From Cetobacterium somerae (lineage in GTDB: Bacteria > Fusobacteriota > Fusobacteriia > Fusobacteriales > Fusobacteriaceae): a DNA stretch of 64,000 nucleotides. The position numbers were made by a program, and so were the translations under genes. The notes beneath the pieces were generated by a model that made no database searches, was not told where the DNA came from, and saw nothing but the letters and a program-made list of their open reading frames with translations. Positions 8,573 through 19,002 of this stretch are shown piece after piece. Each line of letters opens with the position of its first letter. Within the stretch, counting starts at the first letter, position 1. The DNA is taken from positions 62,001 to 126,000 of the forward strand of contig NZ_CP092520.1 of assembly GCF_022430525.1 (NCBI RefSeq), given 5' to 3'.

Positions 8573-10948
8573 ATGAAAAAAAGAGGAATGAATGAAAGAA
8601 TTCAAAAATTGAGAGAGCAAAGTGTGGAAACTCCAGCACATATTTATATTGAAAGAGCTAAATTAATAACAGAAGCGTATAAAAAGTATGAAGGAGAGGT
8701 TTCTATTCCAGAGTTAAGAGCTCTTGCTTTTAAACATTTTATGGAAAATAAATCTATTTGTATAAATGAAGGTGAGTTAATTGTAGGAGAAAAAGGTAAT
8801 GGACCACAGGCAGCTCCAACTTTTCCAGAACTTTGTTGTCATACTTTAGAAGATATGCATATTATGAATGATAGAGATTTAATATCTTTTAAAGTTACAA
8901 AAGAGGATTTGAAAATTCAGGAAGATGAAATTATTCCATATTGGGAGAAAAGATCTATTAGAAATAAAATTATAAACTCTATGGGGAAAGAGTGGAAAGA
9001 GTGTTATGAAAGTGGAATTTTTACAGAGTTTATGGAGCAAAGAGGCCCAGGACATACTGTAGGTTCTGAAAATATATATAAATATGGATTTTTAGATTAT
9101 AAGAAAAAAATTCAAAAAACTATTGAAAAACTAGATTTTTTAAATGATAAGGAAGCTTTAGATAAAAAACAAGAACTGAATGCAATGAGTATTTGTTGTG
9201 ATGCAATTATAACTTTAGGAAAACGTTATGCTGAGTTAGCTCATAAGTTGGCAAAAGTTGAAAAAGATCCAGTTAGAAAAGAGGAGCTTTTAGAAATTGC
9301 TAAAAATTGTGAAGTTGTACCAGCTCATAAGCCAAAAACATATTGGCAAGCTATTCAAATGTATTGGTTTGTTCATATTGGAGTGACTACAGAGTTAAAT
9401 CCATGGGATGCCTTTAGTCCAGGAAGATTAGATCAGCATTTAAATGGTTTCTATATAAAAGACTGCGAAGATGGAATTTTAAATGAGGAGAGAGGATTAG
9501 AACTTTTAGAAAATTTATGGATTAAGTTTAATAATCAACCTGCACCTCCAAAAGTTGGAATAACTTTAAAAGAGAGTAGTACGTATACAGATTTTGCAAA
9601 TATAAATACAGGAGGAATAACTCCAGATGGACAGGATGGAGTTAATGATGTAAGCTATTTAATTTTAAGATGTATGGATGAGATGAAACTTCTACAACCA
9701 AGTTCCAATGTTCAAATTAGTAGAAAAACACCTCTTAAGTTTTTAAAAGAAGCTTGTGCGATTTCACGTAAAGGGTGGGGACAACCAGCTTTTTACAATA
9801 CAGAAGCTATAGTTCAAGAACTTTTAAATGCTGGGAAAACTTTAGCTGATGCTAGAAGAGGTGGAGCAAGTGGATGTGTAGAAACTGGTGCTTTTGGAAA
9901 TGAAGCATATATATTAACAGGATATTTTAATCTACCAAAAATTTTAGAGTTAACTTTAAATAATGGTTATGATAAAATTAGTAACAAGCAACTAGGATTA
10001 AAATTGGGTTATGCAGAGGATTTTAAAAGCTATGATGAACTTTTTGAAGCTTATAAAAAACAGATAAAGTATTTTATGGATATTAAAATAGAGGGAAGTA
10101 ATATAATAGAAACAATTTATGCTAAATATATGCCAGTTCCATTTTTATCAGTTATAACAAATGATTGTATCTCTAGAGGAAAAGATTATAATGCTGGAGG
10201 AGCTCGTTATAATACAACGTATGTTCAAGGAGTAGGAATTGGAACAATAACTGACTCTCTAGCAGCTATAAAATATAATGTTTATGATGAAAAAAACTTT
10301 ACAATGGAAGAGTTAATGAATGCTTTAAATAATAACTTTGAAGGTAGTGCAAGAATATTAAATTTAGTAAAAAATAAAACTCCAAAATATGGAAACGATA
10401 ATGACTATGCAGATGATATAATGAAATCAGTATTTGAGTATTATAACTCAGTTGTAACAGATAGACCTAATATGAAAGGTGGAAGATATGCTATAAATAT
10501 GTTACCAACAACATGTCACGTGTATTTCGGTGAAGTTATGATGGCAAGTGCAAATGGAAGATTAGCTCATAAACCAGTTTCAGAGGGAATCTCTCCAGAA
10601 AAGGGAGCGGATATTTATGGACCGACAGCAGTTTTAAAATCAGCAGCAAAAATGGATCATTTAAAAACTGGTGGAACGTTGTTAAATCAAAAGTTTCTTC
10701 CAAATGTAGTAAAAGGTGAAGAGGGATTAAATCATATGGCAGATGTTGTAAAAACATATTTCAATATGGATGGACATCACATACAATTTAATGTAATAGA
10801 TAAAGAGACACTTTTAAAGGCTCAGCAAAATCCAGATGAATATAAGGATTTAATAGTAAGAGTTGCTGGATATAGTGATCATTTTAGAAATCTAAGTAAA
10901 GCTTTACAAGATGAAATAATAGATAGAACAGAACAAAACTTTAATTAG
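8573..10948 (+). CDS. hypD: trans-4-hydroxy-L-proline dehydratase (glycyl radical enzyme)
   Basis: A 791-residue glycyl radical enzyme that dehydrates trans-4-hydroxy-L-proline to 1-pyrroline-5-carboxylate. The radical loop RVAGYSDHF places the glycyl radical at Gly766, and the thiyl residue is Cys435 in SGCVETG with Glu437 beside it. Compared with the residue numbers I recall for Clostridioides difficile HypD (His160, Asp278, Ser334, Phe340, Cys434, Glu436, Tyr450, Gly765), all are found here one position later: His161, Asp279, Ser335, Phe341, Cys435, Glu437, Tyr451, Gly766. That fit is much better than expected for a pyruvate formate-lyase or glycerol dehydratase. The downstream proC consumes the product. 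Confidence 0.95.
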   Translation: MKKRGMNERIQKLREQSVETPAHIYIERAKLITEAYKKYEGEVSIPELRALAFKHFMENKSICINEGELIVGEKGNGPQAAPTFPELCCHTLEDMHIMNDRDLISFKVTKEDLKIQEDEIIPYWEKRSIRNKIINSMGKEWKECYESGIFTEFMEQRGPGHTVGSENIYKYGFLDYKKKIQKTIEKLDFLNDKEALDKKQELNAMSICCDAIITLGKRYAELAHKLAKVEKDPVRKEELLEIAKNCEVVPAHKPKTYWQAIQMYWFVHIGVTTELNPWDAFSPGRLDQHLNGFYIKDCEDGILNEERGLELLENLWIKFNNQPAPPKVGITLKESSTYTDFANINTGGITPDGQDGVNDVSYLILRCMDEMKLLQPSSNVQISRKTPLKFLKEACAISRKGWGQPAFYNTEAIVQELLNAGKTLADARRGGASGCVETGAFGNEAYILTGYFNLPKILELTLNNGYDKISNKQLGLKLGYAEDFKSYDELFEAYKKQIKYFMDIKIEGSNIIETIYAKYMPVPFLSVITNDCISRGKDYNAGGARYNTTYVQGVGIGTITDSLAAIKYNVYDEKNFTMEELMNALNNNFEGSARILNLVKNKTPKYGNDNDYADDIMKSVFEYYNSVVTDRPNMKGGRYAINMLPTTCHVYFGEVMMASANGRLAHKPVSEGISPEKGADIYGPTAVLKSAAKMDHLKTGGTLLNQKFLPNVVKGEEGLNHMADVVKTYFNMDGHHIQFNVIDKETLLKAQQNPDEYKDLIVRVAGYSDHFRNLSKALQDEIIDRTEQNFN

Positions 10949-10970
10949 TTAGAAAAAGAAGGAGGACACA

Positions 10971-11765
10971 GTGAGAATAGGATTTATAGGGGCAGGAAAT
11001 ATGTCTGGTGCAATAATAAAAGGGATAATCTCTTCAGGGATTGTTAAAAAAGAGGATGTATTTGCTGCTGATAAGTTTTTACCAACTTTAGAAAAAGTAA
11101 AAACAAACTATGGAATAAATATAACAGAGGATAATAAGGAGGTTGTAGAAAATTGTGATGTAATATTTTTAGCTGTAAAACCACAATTTTATAGTGAAGT
11201 AATAAAAGAGATATCACCATTTGTAAAAGAAACTACAACTGTGGTAACTATAGCCCCTGGACAAACTTTAAAAAATTTAGAAGCAACTTTTGGAAAAGAG
11301 ATTAAAATTGTTAGAACAATGCCAAACACTCCAGCAATGGTTTGTGAAGGAATGACAGCAATTTGTGCAAATAAAAAAGTTACTAAAGGGGAGTTAGACT
11401 ATATTTGTACTCTTTTAAATTCAATTGGAAAAGCTGAAGTTGTAGCTGAGTATATGATGGATGCTGTAGTTGGAGTTAGTGGAAGCTCACCTGCATATGT
11501 TTATATGTTTATAGAGGCTTTGGCAGATGGAGCAGTAATGGAGGGAATGCCAAGAGAGATGGCATATAAGTTTGCAGCTCAAGCAGTTTTAGGAAGTGCT
11601 AAAATGGTTTTAGAAACAGGGATACACCCAGGAGCTTTAAAAGATATGGTTTGTTCTCCAGGAGGGACAACAATAGAAGCTGTGAGTATTTTAGAAGAAA
11701 GAGGAATGAGAAGTAGTGTTATAGAAGCGATTAGAGGTTGTGTAGCTAAAGCTAGAAAAATGTAA
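10971..11765 (+). CDS. proC: Pyrroline-5-carboxylate reductase
   Basis: A 264-residue NAD(P)H-dependent reductase. The Rossmann motif GFIGAGNMSGAIIKG opens the protein, AVKPQF and RTMPNTPAMV follow, and the C-terminal dimerisation domain holds GSSPAYVYMFIEALADGA and SPGGTTIEA. It reduces the 1-pyrroline-5-carboxylate formed by HypD to L-proline, which closes the hydroxyproline-to-proline route and regenerates oxidised cofactor. It starts with GTG behind GGAGGA, 22 bases after hypD. The operon position indicates a catabolic, electron-sink role rather than proline biosynthesis only. Confidence 0.95.
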   Translation: MRIGFIGAGNMSGAIIKGIISSGIVKKEDVFAADKFLPTLEKVKTNYGINITEDNKEVVENCDVIFLAVKPQFYSEVIKEISPFVKETTTVVTIAPGQTLKNLEATFGKEIKIVRTMPNTPAMVCEGMTAICANKKVTKGELDYICTLLNSIGKAEVVAEYMMDAVVGVSGSSPAYVYMFIEALADGAVMEGMPREMAYKFAAQAVLGSAKMVLETGIHPGALKDMVCSPGGTTIEAVSILEERGMRSSVIEAIRGCVAKARKM

Positions 11766-11777
11766 GGGGGAGAAAAA

Positions 11778-12086
11778 GTGGAGTTTAAAAATGTAAAGGT
11801 TATAAAAAAGGCAAATGTATATTTTGATGGAAGGGTAGATAGTAGAACAATTATATTTGAAGATGGAAGTAGAAAAACTTTAGGGTTTATGCAAAAAGGA
11901 GAATATGAGTTTGGAACAGCAGCTCCAGAAGTAATGGAAGTTTTAGGTGGAGAGATGCTAATTAAAAGAGCTCAAGATTCTGGATTTATCAAGATAAAAG
12001 AGGGAGAAAGTTTTTCTGTAGAGGGAGATTCATCTTTTAAAGTTGTAGTTAATGATTACGCAGATTACTGTTGTTCTTATAAATAA
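11778..12086 (+). CDS. ppnP: Pyrimidine/purine nucleoside phosphorylase, PpnP family
   Basis: A 102-residue single-domain cupin of the PpnP (YaiE, DUF1255) family. [33 protein letters not shown]-like and [13 protein letters not shown] align by eye with E. coli YaiE. Family members split nucleosides with phosphate to base and ribose-1-phosphate. It starts with GTG seven bases after GGGGG and lies 12 bases after proC. Its place at the end of a hydroxyproline operon is not explained by the pathway; it might be a passenger, or help process a co-imported nucleoside. The operon terminator follows at once. Confidence 0.85.
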
Positions 12087-14562: not shown

Positions 14563-14638
14563 AGTTACCTCTCTTAAAAAAATAATATCTACATATAGTT
14601 ATATCACAAAAATAAAAAAATCCTTGTTTTTTTTATTG

Positions 14639-14644
14639 TATAAT
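14639..14644 (+). promoter_or_regulatory. Minus-10 element of the leader/transporter unit
   Basis: A perfect TATAAT lies 44 bases before the leader-peptide start. The region 17 bases upstream is A-rich and offers no convincing -35 box, so only the -10 is called. Confidence 0.5.
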
Positions 14645-14687
14645 GCTACAATAACTCAAAATAATTATTCTTAGGGAGGTGTATTAA

Positions 14688-14762
14688 ATGAAAAAGCAAT
14701 TAGATATCTTAAAAATTAATACATCTTTAACAGAAACAGTTTTATTTTGGTGGTGGCCATAG
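14688..14762 (+). CDS. Tryptophan-rich leader peptide (24 aa, WWWP-stop)
   Basis: An ATG preceded by a strong AGGGAGGTG opens a 24-codon frame. It ends with three consecutive TGG codons, CCA and a TAG stop, so the peptide finishes LFWWWP. A hairpin begins four bases after the stop, and a perfect intrinsic terminator lies about 100 bases downstream, before the NSS transporter. Its ribosome-binding site and start context are almost identical to those of the transporter. Three clustered Trp codons are the classical mark of Trp-controlled attenuation, while Pro directly before the stop recalls TnaC-type stalling. I could not find a convincing antiterminator pairing, so the mechanism is open. Confidence 0.8.
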   Translation: MKKQLDILKINTSLTETVLFWWWP

Positions 14763-14765
14763 TTA

Positions 14766-14795
14766 GTTTGTAACCTGAGAATGCAGGATACAAAC
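14766..14795 (+). promoter_or_regulatory. Leader hairpin directly after the WWWP peptide
   Basis: A 12-base stem with one A-A mismatch (GTTTGTAACCTG at 14766-14777 and CAGGATACAAAC at 14784-14795) and a six-base loop. It starts four bases after the leader stop codon, so a ribosome held at the Trp codons or at the stop would cover or touch its left arm. It lacks a clear T-tract. Confidence 0.7.
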
Positions 14796-14859
14796 TTATT
14801 TTAGCTTGGTCAAAAACTAAAAAAGATTGTATCTGATAGATTAAATTGAGAAACCATTT

Positions 14860-14893
14860 ATTCCACAGATATATTTCTGTGGAATTTTTTTTT
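14860..14893 (+). terminator. Attenuator-type intrinsic terminator before the NSS transporter
   Basis: A perfect 10-base stem (ATTCCACAGA and TCTGTGGAAT) with a six-base loop is followed by eight T residues. It ends 24 bases before the transporter start codon, so transcription must read through it to express the transporter. Confidence 0.9.
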
Positions 14894-14917
14894 ACAAAAT
14901 TTAGGAGGTGTATTAAA

Positions 14918-16272: not shown

Positions 16273-18903
16273 TTAAAAAATGTAACTTATTCCAGCACCA
16301 ATTCTCCAAGAGTTCTCTTTAGAAAATTCGTATAAATAGTTAGTATATATAGAAAGTCCTGTTTGAAGTTCCCCAACTTTAACATTAATTCCAATTTCTT
16401 GAGAAAATCTATTTTTGTTATTTATATCTATAGAACCAGTTTCATTTCCCAAAGATTGCACTTTAAATTTCATATTTTTATCAATATTGTTTAAGTCTTG
16501 TTTTAGATATCCAACTAAAGAAAGTTTAACTCCATAGTTTTTAATATCAAATTTTTTTCCTAAATCTCCACCAAGATAGAAAGTATTTAAGAATCCATTT
16601 AATTTATCTAAGTTAAGATTATATGTTCCATTGTGTTCATCAATACTTTTTTGAAATACTCCCATTGATTGGAATTTTCCAATTGGTTCTACATAAAAAG
16701 AGTTCCAATTAAATATTTTTGATATTTTTCCCATTCCACCAACATAGAAAGTTTTAATTTTAGAATCTAAACTTTCATTGAAATCTACAGTTTTGACAGA
16801 TGTTAAAGTATCATTGTATTGAGAGTAATCAAATTGAATATTTCTATCTAAATCGCCTTTAGAATATCCAAGAAATAAAGCTCCAAGTCCATTAAAATTA
16901 TTTTTATTATAGTTTAAATAACCTGTTCCTTGAAATAAATTATCCTCACGTTTTCCGTAGTCATTTTTAAATTTGTCACTTAATCGAGTATAATTAAGAA
17001 GCCAACCACTACTGATAGAAGAGGTTAAAGGATAGTTTTTACCAATAAAAAGACTATTTAACTCTTGATTATACCCAAGAATATTGTCATAACCACTTTT
17101 ATTAACTTTTTCAAAAGAGTATCCGAAAATATATCTCTCTTTAGATAAAATTTTTGGAATTTCAGTTAAATGAGATAAAATATTATTGTTTCCAAACTCT
17201 ATGGCATCTCTAGTTTGATAAATAAGAGATGGGAAATATCCACGACCAAAAATTTCATTTAAATAATTTTCAAAATGATCACTACTTTTAGAAGATAGAA
17301 TTATATCAAACAATCTATCTTTAGATGGATTTTTAGAATCGTAATAGATATTTTCTAAATAATTACCTAAAGGATCATTTGTAAGAACAGAAAAGCTAAG
17401 TTTACTAAAGATAGCTTCATTTCCGTGTAGAATTAATTTATAGCCGTAGAGATTGCTTTTTATCTCTTTTGCAGATTTTATAATGGTATTATCTAGAGTA
17501 GCTTTACTCATAAGATTGTAGTTATTTCCCATATAACTTTTTCCTAAATAAATAGTTTCAATAGATTTTTTTTCAGAAGAGGTAACAATAGAACCACCTT
17601 TCTCCATAACTAAATTACCACCTCGATATATTAAAGGGAGATTATTATCAGTAGGTTTAACTATTTTACCCCAGTTATGAAGAGTACCTTTTCCATTTAA
17701 TAAAATACCATTTTTATTCAGGTTAACTACACCACTTGGTTCATTTGTTCCAATTGCTGAATGACCAAGTTGGAATGCAAAACTTCCATCAGTATATATA
17801 TCTTGAGGAGCAGGTGGATTGATATTAATAAGTCCAAAGTTTTTTAGAACAGTATTTTTTCCACCACTCATTCCTGAATAACTTCTACCATTTATATTTA
17901 TAGTCCCATTATTTATTGCGACTCCAGCTTCAGAAACACCCATACCACTAGAAACAATATTGTTTGGATTTTTTCCAGTGTCATCCATTGTTAAAGTCCC
18001 ATTATTTATAATAGTTCCTCCAGGTGAAAACATACCAAAGTTAGTGTTATATGTTTTTATGATACCATCATTAACTCCAATACCACCTTCAGAAGCACAA
18101 ATACCAATATTCCCATTAGTTATATCAATAACACCTGTTGATGAGTTAGTAAAGTGTCCCTTTCCAATAACTTGAACTCCTTGATACCCGTTACCAGAAA
18201 TAGTACCGTTATTAATTCCTGTTGTATTTCCATAAATTTGAATACCAGTTGCGTAGTATGAATTTAAGTGAATATTTCCGTTGTTGATTCCTAAACCGTC
18301 ACTGATAACATTGATACCAGTTCCATAAAGACCATTAATATTTATATTTCCATCATTAATAACAGTTCCACCACCAGAAGCTTGCATTCCAGTTGTAGTA
18401 GTATTATGAGGATTATTATCAATAGTTAAAGTATTTTTGTTAAAAAGAGTATAGCCAGTTAGAATACTACCCATTCCAACAAAATGATCTTTGTTAATAG
18501 TAAAATCACCCATTAAAGGGGCTTTGTCTGTGTATAAAGTTTTTCCGGGATAATAATATTTACCATAGAAAATATATCCATTTTTAGGTGATGGAGTAGT
18601 ATGAGGTTGTTCTGGTGGTTCAACTTCATGGACGTGATCTGTAGATGGGTGTTCTGGTGTGGGAGGCGTAGGAATAATAGGTGGAGCAGGTGGAAGAACT
18701 GGTTTTTGAGGTGGAACAATAGGTGGAAGTGTAATAGCTTGAGTTGATAATTTGAAATAAGAGTTGTTAGTTTGACTCATAGGTCGAGTGTTGTCTTTAA
18801 AGTAATTATAATCTGACCAAAAGATGAGGCCACTTTGCTCTTGGGCAAAGACACTGGATGTTTGTAAAGTTACTGCAAGTAGTAAAAGATTAAAATTTTT
18901 CAT
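16273..18903 (-). CDS. Type Va autotransporter with proline-rich stalk
   Basis: An 876-residue secreted surface protein. The ATG at 18903 is used because AGGAGG lies just before it; a TTG further upstream overlaps that site. Residues 1-20 form a signal peptide ending SSVFA. Residues about 45-105 are rich in Pro, His and Glu (for example LPPIVPPQKPVLPPAPP). Residues about 145-430 are repeats of the GxxINNGxI kind, predicted to form a right-handed beta-helix. About the last 270 residues are an autotransporter barrel ending in YIF. Fusobacteria carry many such proteins as adhesins; the ligand here is unknown. It is transcribed alone with terminators on both sides. Confidence 0.9.
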   Translation of the reverse strand: MKNFNLLLLAVTLQTSSVFAQEQSGLIFWSDYNYFKDNTRPMSQTNNSYFKLSTQAITLPPIVPPQKPVLPPAPPIIPTPPTPEHPSTDHVHEVEPPEQPHTTPSPKNGYIFYGKYYYPGKTLYTDKAPLMGDFTINKDHFVGMGSILTGYTLFNKNTLTIDNNPHNTTTTGMQASGGGTVINDGNININGLYGTGINVISDGLGINNGNIHLNSYYATGIQIYGNTTGINNGTISGNGYQGVQVIGKGHFTNSSTGVIDITNGNIGICASEGGIGVNDGIIKTYNTNFGMFSPGGTIINNGTLTMDDTGKNPNNIVSSGMGVSEAGVAINNGTININGRSYSGMSGGKNTVLKNFGLININPPAPQDIYTDGSFAFQLGHSAIGTNEPSGVVNLNKNGILLNGKGTLHNWGKIVKPTDNNLPLIYRGGNLVMEKGGSIVTSSEKKSIETIYLGKSYMGNNYNLMSKATLDNTIIKSAKEIKSNLYGYKLILHGNEAIFSKLSFSVLTNDPLGNYLENIYYDSKNPSKDRLFDIILSSKSSDHFENYLNEIFGRGYFPSLIYQTRDAIEFGNNNILSHLTEIPKILSKERYIFGYSFEKVNKSGYDNILGYNQELNSLFIGKNYPLTSSISSGWLLNYTRLSDKFKNDYGKREDNLFQGTGYLNYNKNNFNGLGALFLGYSKGDLDRNIQFDYSQYNDTLTSVKTVDFNESLDSKIKTFYVGGMGKISKIFNWNSFYVEPIGKFQSMGVFQKSIDEHNGTYNLNLDKLNGFLNTFYLGGDLGKKFDIKNYGVKLSLVGYLKQDLNNIDKNMKFKVQSLGNETGSIDINNKNRFSQEIGINVKVGELQTGLSIYTNYLYEFSKENSWRIGAGISYIF

Positions 18904-19002
18904 AACTTTTCCTCCTGACAAATAAAATATTGTGCACTATTAAACAAAAAGTACTATACATAGAAAAGAATTGAAATCCTTCTTTTTTGTTTGGAAATTT
19001 AT

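Follow-up and report, generated by a model that had tools for sequence, protein, structure and literature searches.

What is the function of a 24-codon reading frame that ends in three adjacent Trp codons, a Pro codon and a stop and that stands ahead of a transporter gene? The question is raised by a locus in Cetobacterium somerae, where such a leader precedes a gene of the sodium:neurotransmitter symporter (NSS) family (table 1). All coordinates refer to the window, the whole 64,000-nucleotide stretch of DNA that was analyzed. Judged from the sequence and its relatives, the locus is most probably a ribosome-mediated transcription attenuator that reads the supply of Trp-tRNA and controls the NSS transporter.

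Table 1. Features of the leader region and of the gene behind it (window positions)
Feature	Position	Strand	Basis
Likely promoter, TTGTTT (-35) and TACAAT (-10) with TGC before the -10	14623–14651 (approximate)	+	Reading of the sequence
Leader RBS, AGGGAGG	14674–14680	+	Sequence; same position in relatives
Hairpin P0, leader RBS (about 14675–14687) with leader codons 10–14 (about 14716–14728)	14675–14728	+	z about -2.9
Leader peptide ORF, MKKQLDILKINTSLTETVLFWWWP-stop, 24 codons	14688–14762	+	ATG 14688, stop TAG 14760–14762; frame recurs in relatives
Tandem Trp codons (three TGG), regulatory	14748–14756	+	Sequence; conserved in relatives
Segment A, leader codons including WWW, partner of the D region when the RNA is untranslated	14731–14763	+	Folding, duplex tests
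Segment B, 5' arm of the post-stop hairpin	14765–14777	+	Folding, duplex tests
Segment C, 3' arm of the B:C hairpin, alternative partner D	14784–14804	+	Duplex tests, covariation
Segment D, antiterminator strand, core UGUAUCUG at 14828–14835; rival partners A, C and E	14817–14836	+	Duplex tests, masked folding, covariation
Segment E, terminator 5' arm and loop; D-pairing part 14866–14873	14860–14875	+	Terminator reading, duplex
Segment F, terminator 3' arm and U tract	14876–14893	+	Terminator reading
Regulated gene, NSS transporter, predicted Trp importer	14918 (GTG)–16231	+	Family models, MhsT likeness, clade

The leader had been predicted from the DNA alone as a 24-codon frame with a strong ribosome site, three TGG codons, CCA and TAG. 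The frame is real and its coordinates were confirmed, with the Pro codon (CCA, 14757–14759) directly before the TAG. The sequence TGGTGGTGGCCNTRR occurs a single time in the entire genome (2.97 Mb; reversed control, 0), and the leader RNA (14670–14895) folds with z = -6.9 (0 out of 200 shuffles were equally stable). A consensus scan did not find the likely promoter. Ahead of the orthologous gene, TGGTGGTGGCC-stop is present in eight Cetobacterium genomes, and a WWW or WW leader precedes 13 orthologues within two genera. The second genus, which belongs to the same family, carries WWSS-stop, WWRS-stop, WWRSF-stop or WWWSF-stop at the equivalent place, and a more distant locus has a leader with NWWSS. 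Conservation of the leader frame had been proposed as a check on the original prediction, and the frame, its start, the Shine–Dalgarno sequence and the Trp codons do recur at the orthologue in other Cetobacterium and in the second genus. By these comparisons, the Trp codons of the leader are conserved and the Pro codon is not, and the conserved ORF, RBS and WWW run predict that the short ORF, with its run of cognate codons, is translated. No leader was found before the more distant orthologues (about 67% identity) of a third genus. In the Cetobacterium MAG G007 (L022; also L009) the leader and both hairpins are gone and a terminator is retained before the transporter, by natural deletion or by an assembly fault. 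A separate case is L045 (G003, one of the eight Cetobacterium genomes with TGGTGGTGGCC-stop), where leader and terminator are intact and are followed by another gene, with the transporter on a different contig; this looks like an insertion between leader and transporter.

The Trp codons are accompanied by a further hairpin, P0, in which the pairing is maintained despite base changes in most W-type leaders, with changes on both sides in the second genus. P0 was sought in the non-Trp members (His, Tyr and Phe) of the RNA family described below and is absent from them (mean z about +0.4). The RBS of the E. coli trpL leader is apparently self-sequestered and that leader is limited to one ribosome. 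P0 in the W-type leaders resembles this arrangement and, as modeled, may hide the leader's own RBS and limit ribosome reloading, to one ribosome per leader.

Six segments (A–F) of the window RNA can form the mutually exclusive pairings A:D, B:C, C:D, D:E and E:F. The B:C hairpin (14765–14777 with 14784–14796) consists of 8 + 4 pairs with one A/A mismatch and begins three bases past the stop; the 12 pairs of the originally predicted hairpin are present. The perfect terminator predicted ahead of the transporter was found, with 10 perfect pairs (14860–14869 with 14876–14885) followed by T8. The C:D duplex joins 14786–14804 with 14817–14834, and the A:D duplex joins the leader codons (14723–14763) with the D region (14803–14841). 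No antiterminator had been recognized at first; a pairing had been sought only with the 5' arm of the terminator as a whole. An antiterminator does exist: the core UGUAUCUG of segment D pairs with CAGAUAUA in the loop and the upper part of the terminator 5' arm (8 pairs in the window, one of them G-U, -8.7 kcal/mol), and native D and E partners beat swapped partners in 2000 out of 2000 permutations. D:E and E:F are an exclusive choice between antiterminator and terminator, as is indicated by native versus swapped pairing.

In the attenuator model the segments, pairings, conservation and homology are taken from the sequence and the folds are computed, and from these we infer the following order of events. 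When Trp-tRNA is scarce, the ribosome would halt on the TGG codons and cover A; B:C would then form and leave D free for E, the terminator would fail and the transporter would be made. When Trp-tRNA is plentiful, the ribosome would reach the stop and cover B, so that C:D and the terminator E:F would form and the gene would be off. In an untranslated RNA, A or C would tie up D, with termination as the outcome.

The pairings were examined across the family by a duplex swap test in which native and swapped segments were compared at 32 non-redundant loci, with 2000 permutations and reversed-sequence controls. Native duplexes were more stable than swapped ones for D:E (-13.5 vs. -10.0 kcal/mol), A:D (-19.3 vs. 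-13.8 kcal/mol) and B:C (-15.8 vs. -10.1 kcal/mol), with 0 out of 2000 permutations as good in each case, and all three also outdid the reversed-sequence controls. The C:D pairing covaries, with 10 pairs changed on both sides and values above all 500 shuffles on five out of five measures. In the family alignment the paired fraction of D:E lies above all shuffles and its double changes are modest (6 pairs changed on both sides; 123 out of 500 shuffles were as high). An alignment of the Trp loci (A1, MAFFT) that placed segment D wrongly in the second genus was left out of the pair counts.

The position of the ribosome was represented by a 30-base mask during equilibrium folding of the RNA before the terminator 3' arm exists, and the mask at the stop served as a masking control. 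The expected number of D:E pairs in the window was 11.1 with the ribosome on the first regulatory (W) codon, 6.6 with no ribosome and 4.0 with the ribosome at the stop; the corresponding values over 170 loci were 6.3, 3.9 and 2.5. D:E was favored by the stall over the stop at 89 of these loci and by the stop over the stall at 7, and the difference is absent at L027, L028 and four Pro loci. Within such footprint-masked equilibrium folding, the position of the ribosome would thus pick the structure. The D:E duplex of the window is short and, under the model, has to prevail through timing, an aspect that lies outside equilibrium folding.

The downstream half of the structure has a published relative. 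The trpB motif (RF04312) matches 14787–14896 with 32.1 bits (E = 0.007), below its gathering cut-off of 59 bits; the best among all genome matches reached 57.6 bits. The counterparts of the motif's two hairpins are C:D and E:F, and the published description contains neither a leader peptide nor segments A or B (PMC11109978). The motif was reported from Firmicutes and Fusobacteria, where it mostly lies ahead of genes for amino-acid transporters. A riboswitch was proposed by its authors, who also suspected that the right shoulder of P1 contains an antiterminator and left a classic attenuator possible (PMC11109978). A first covariance model (R1, RNAalifold on alignment A2) recovered the terminator only. 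For the second model (R2) the C:D structure was set by hand on 28 members, all below the cut-off for RF04312 and none of them a Trp-NSS locus. The window was its best match (47.5 bits, E = 1.5e-6; next match in the window, 30.8 bits; background terminators, ~31 bits). R2 also recovered 13 out of 13 leader-bearing orthologues (L024 marginally, 32.2 bits), so that by this model the two-hairpin scaffold in the window and its orthologues is homologous to the trpB-motif members. The leader-less G007 locus was not found by R2 on the right strand.

A family survey of Fusobacteriota and Clostridia yielded 167 matches to RF04312, every one below the cut-off. Leaders were chosen and false positives removed partly by eye, and L094, L098, L099, L159, L161, L166, L188, L193, L194 and L215 were judged false or leader-less. 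At about 157 of the 167 places inspection showed, just upstream, a leader ORF enriched in a single codon class. Runs of at least three identical residues (H, Y, F, W, P, L or R) within the last 13 codons are present in 112 out of 165 leaders, compared with 3.8 (maximum 10) in nucleotide shuffles. The codon run matches the gene that follows: His runs precede hisZ/HisS-like genes (40 out of 40) and polar amino-acid binding proteins of the His-type transporter (28 out of 28), with two His only in 2 out of these 68 leaders, Pro runs precede PutP (4 out of 4), Leu runs a second NSS subfamily (10 out of 10) and Trp runs two TrpX-like binding proteins. Assignments made by eye add Tyr runs before TyrRS-like genes (4 out of 4, identified from sequence), Phe/Tyr runs before BrnQ-type genes (15 out of 15) and a Phe or Tyr run before a TrpY-like ABC permease. 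Trp, Tyr or Phe runs precede 44 out of 45 members of the aromatic NSS subfamily, where L036 was included on the strength of its WW. Besides the Trp version, a His (C1:853420) and a Pro version (C1:520939) are present in the home genome.

These codon blocks bear directly on other explanations of the locus. The leader could act as in E. coli tnaC, which likewise has Trp and a Pro before the stop: free tryptophan would arrest the ribosome at Pro24-stop, and this arrest, not starvation, would set the outcome. The original prediction had considered such a use of the penultimate Pro; all Cetobacterium leaders seen do end in WWWP-stop, and the RNA fold would be altered by a ribosome that waits at the stop. 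TnaC-like arrest is nevertheless quite unlikely because the Pro before the stop is not conserved: a Pro with essential Trp upstream is expected for this type of arrest, and it is confined to Cetobacterium, being missing from all of the second-genus leader endings listed above. Furthermore, the scaffold also occurs with His, Tyr, Phe, Leu and Pro codons that match other genes, unlike a Trp-specific arrest peptide, and a ribosome at the stop is predicted by the folding model to favor termination, a response opposite to that of tnaC.

A true riboswitch, in which C:D and the terminator bind the amino acid directly, is the published guess for the trpB motif, which was presented as a strong riboswitch candidate (PMC11109978), and the strong covariation of C:D agrees with it. 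It is very unlikely here, as one scaffold stands before His, Tyr, Phe, Leu, Pro and Trp genes and the part that changes is the upstream codon run, which is far in excess of shuffles (112 against 3.8), whereas the hairpin sequence is variable and has no obvious fixed pocket. That the frame is there by chance, ahead of an ordinary terminator and with no regulation, would fit the G007 relative, which has lost the leader yet retains terminator and gene; conservation in two genera, the exclusive pairings and the family-wide match of codons to genes make this extremely unlikely. The Trp-dependent attenuation that had been predicted originally is supported by the Trp-codon leader, the exclusive pairings and the conservation, all of them features of sequence.

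Among the classic attenuators, that of the his operon in E. coli and Salmonella has segments A–F, with B:C and D:E forming on a stall and C:D and E:F with the ribosome at the stop. The window shares this six-segment logic and differs in that its untranslated RNA uses A:D in place of A:B. The E. coli trp leader has tandem Trp codons and a terminator like the window but four segments. The window was unmatched by His_leader (RF00514) and Trp_leader (RF00513) in a scan of all Rfam families with E up to 10. His leader attenuators are known from bacilli (hisZ and a hisS paralogue, 2010; PMC2965389) and from C. difficile and others (2022; PMC9413887). In the available portions of both papers, these Firmicutes leaders combine a His-codon leader, attenuator hairpin, antiterminator and terminator before his genes, as in the window scaffold, and are described for his genes only, with no link made to the trpB motif, to other amino acids or to NSS genes (PMC2965389, PMC9413887). 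On that description they are very likely the His branch of the attenuator family to which the window belongs.

A member of the family may also have been catalogued as a small RNA. The Enterococcus sRNA_2410 model (RF02863) matches a brnQ-type leader (L101:1458–1648) with 64.6 bits (cut-off 61), and in its consensus segment D pairs with UUAGCUACUUUAGAUAG, a stretch that can be read as Phe-Ser-Tyr-Phe-Arg-stop; this is the A:D pairing. Two short transcripts of sRNA_2410 were seen on Northern blots (PMC5593968). Unlike the window attenuator it is listed as an sRNA, and it may be the terminated leader of a member of this family. A match to the C. difficile sRNA SQ1002 (34.8 bits, cut-off 128) was too weak for use.

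Overall, the trpB-motif class, together with one or more of the catalogued Enterococcus sRNAs, probably constitutes one ancient modular attenuator family of the Fusobacteriota and Firmicutes, in which a fixed RNA switch is combined with an exchanged codon block (Trp, Tyr, Phe, His, Leu or Pro) and the substrate of the transporter can be read from the leader. The Firmicutes His attenuators are already known; the unified, codon-swappable family appears to be new. In the accessible portions of the open-access literature no paper linking the His attenuators to the trpB motif was found, and the open-access literature yielded no Trp, Tyr, Phe, Leu or Pro versions on the scaffold, in Fusobacteria or before NSS genes.

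The transporter belongs to the NSS family (PF00209), with 104.8 bits to NF037979 (cut-off 50) and a PF00209 score above its cut-off here. Its closest named relatives are from Cetobacterium, and its closest solved relative is 4us3 (E = 7e-72), which we take to be MhsT, a transporter of Trp and other hydrophobic amino acids. The W-leader transporters group in a single clade (100/100). Where LeuT has Ser256, the aligned residue is Gly in 12 out of 12 W-leader transporters and in 0 out of 27 Y/F transporters; opposite LeuT 359, Asn is present in all W and Y types, and Ala or Val in 9 out of 13 F types. No trpB gene over the cut-off was found in 12 Cetobacterium genomes, which suggests that Cetobacterium depends on imported Trp. 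Two tryptophanase-like genes are present and one of them is directly ahead of a different NSS paralogue, so that the window transporter looks like the scavenging one. Trp as the substrate, proposed originally from the leader, agrees with MhsT as the nearest structure, with a W clade that has its own pocket change and with the lack of a trpB gene over the cut-off, and stands as a prediction.

A near-invariant structured element, CCGTCCGCCTATCTGaaaaCAGATGACCGGGGTAGACTAAAAACGGAGG, was observed at L230:690–735 (G000:C4) and also at L227, L228, L229 and L232. It overlaps the RBS of a gene resembling tryptophanase/tyrosine phenol-lyase, which in turn lies ahead of an NSS paralogue. The element has no Rfam match with E up to 0.1 and may represent a translational riboswitch or a protein site not described before. 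Elsewhere in the window, a trans-4-hydroxy-L-proline dehydratase (glycyl radical enzyme, NF043068, 1513 bits) is followed by a pyrroline-5-carboxylate reductase-like gene identified by eye (8573–12086), and an autotransporter-like protein, also identified by eye, is encoded on the minus strand (16273–18921), convergent with the NSS gene.

If the family is as proposed, leader translation, not ligand binding, would be the mechanism behind an orphan riboswitch candidate that has been published and counts more than 900 members, and one RNA scaffold would serve at least six amino acids through a change of codons, a use comparable to that of T-boxes. The substrates of many uncharacterized NSS, BrnQ-type and ABC transporters would then be predictable from the genome, including that of an SLC6-family Trp importer in a bacterium whose search for a tryptophan synthase beta gene gave none.
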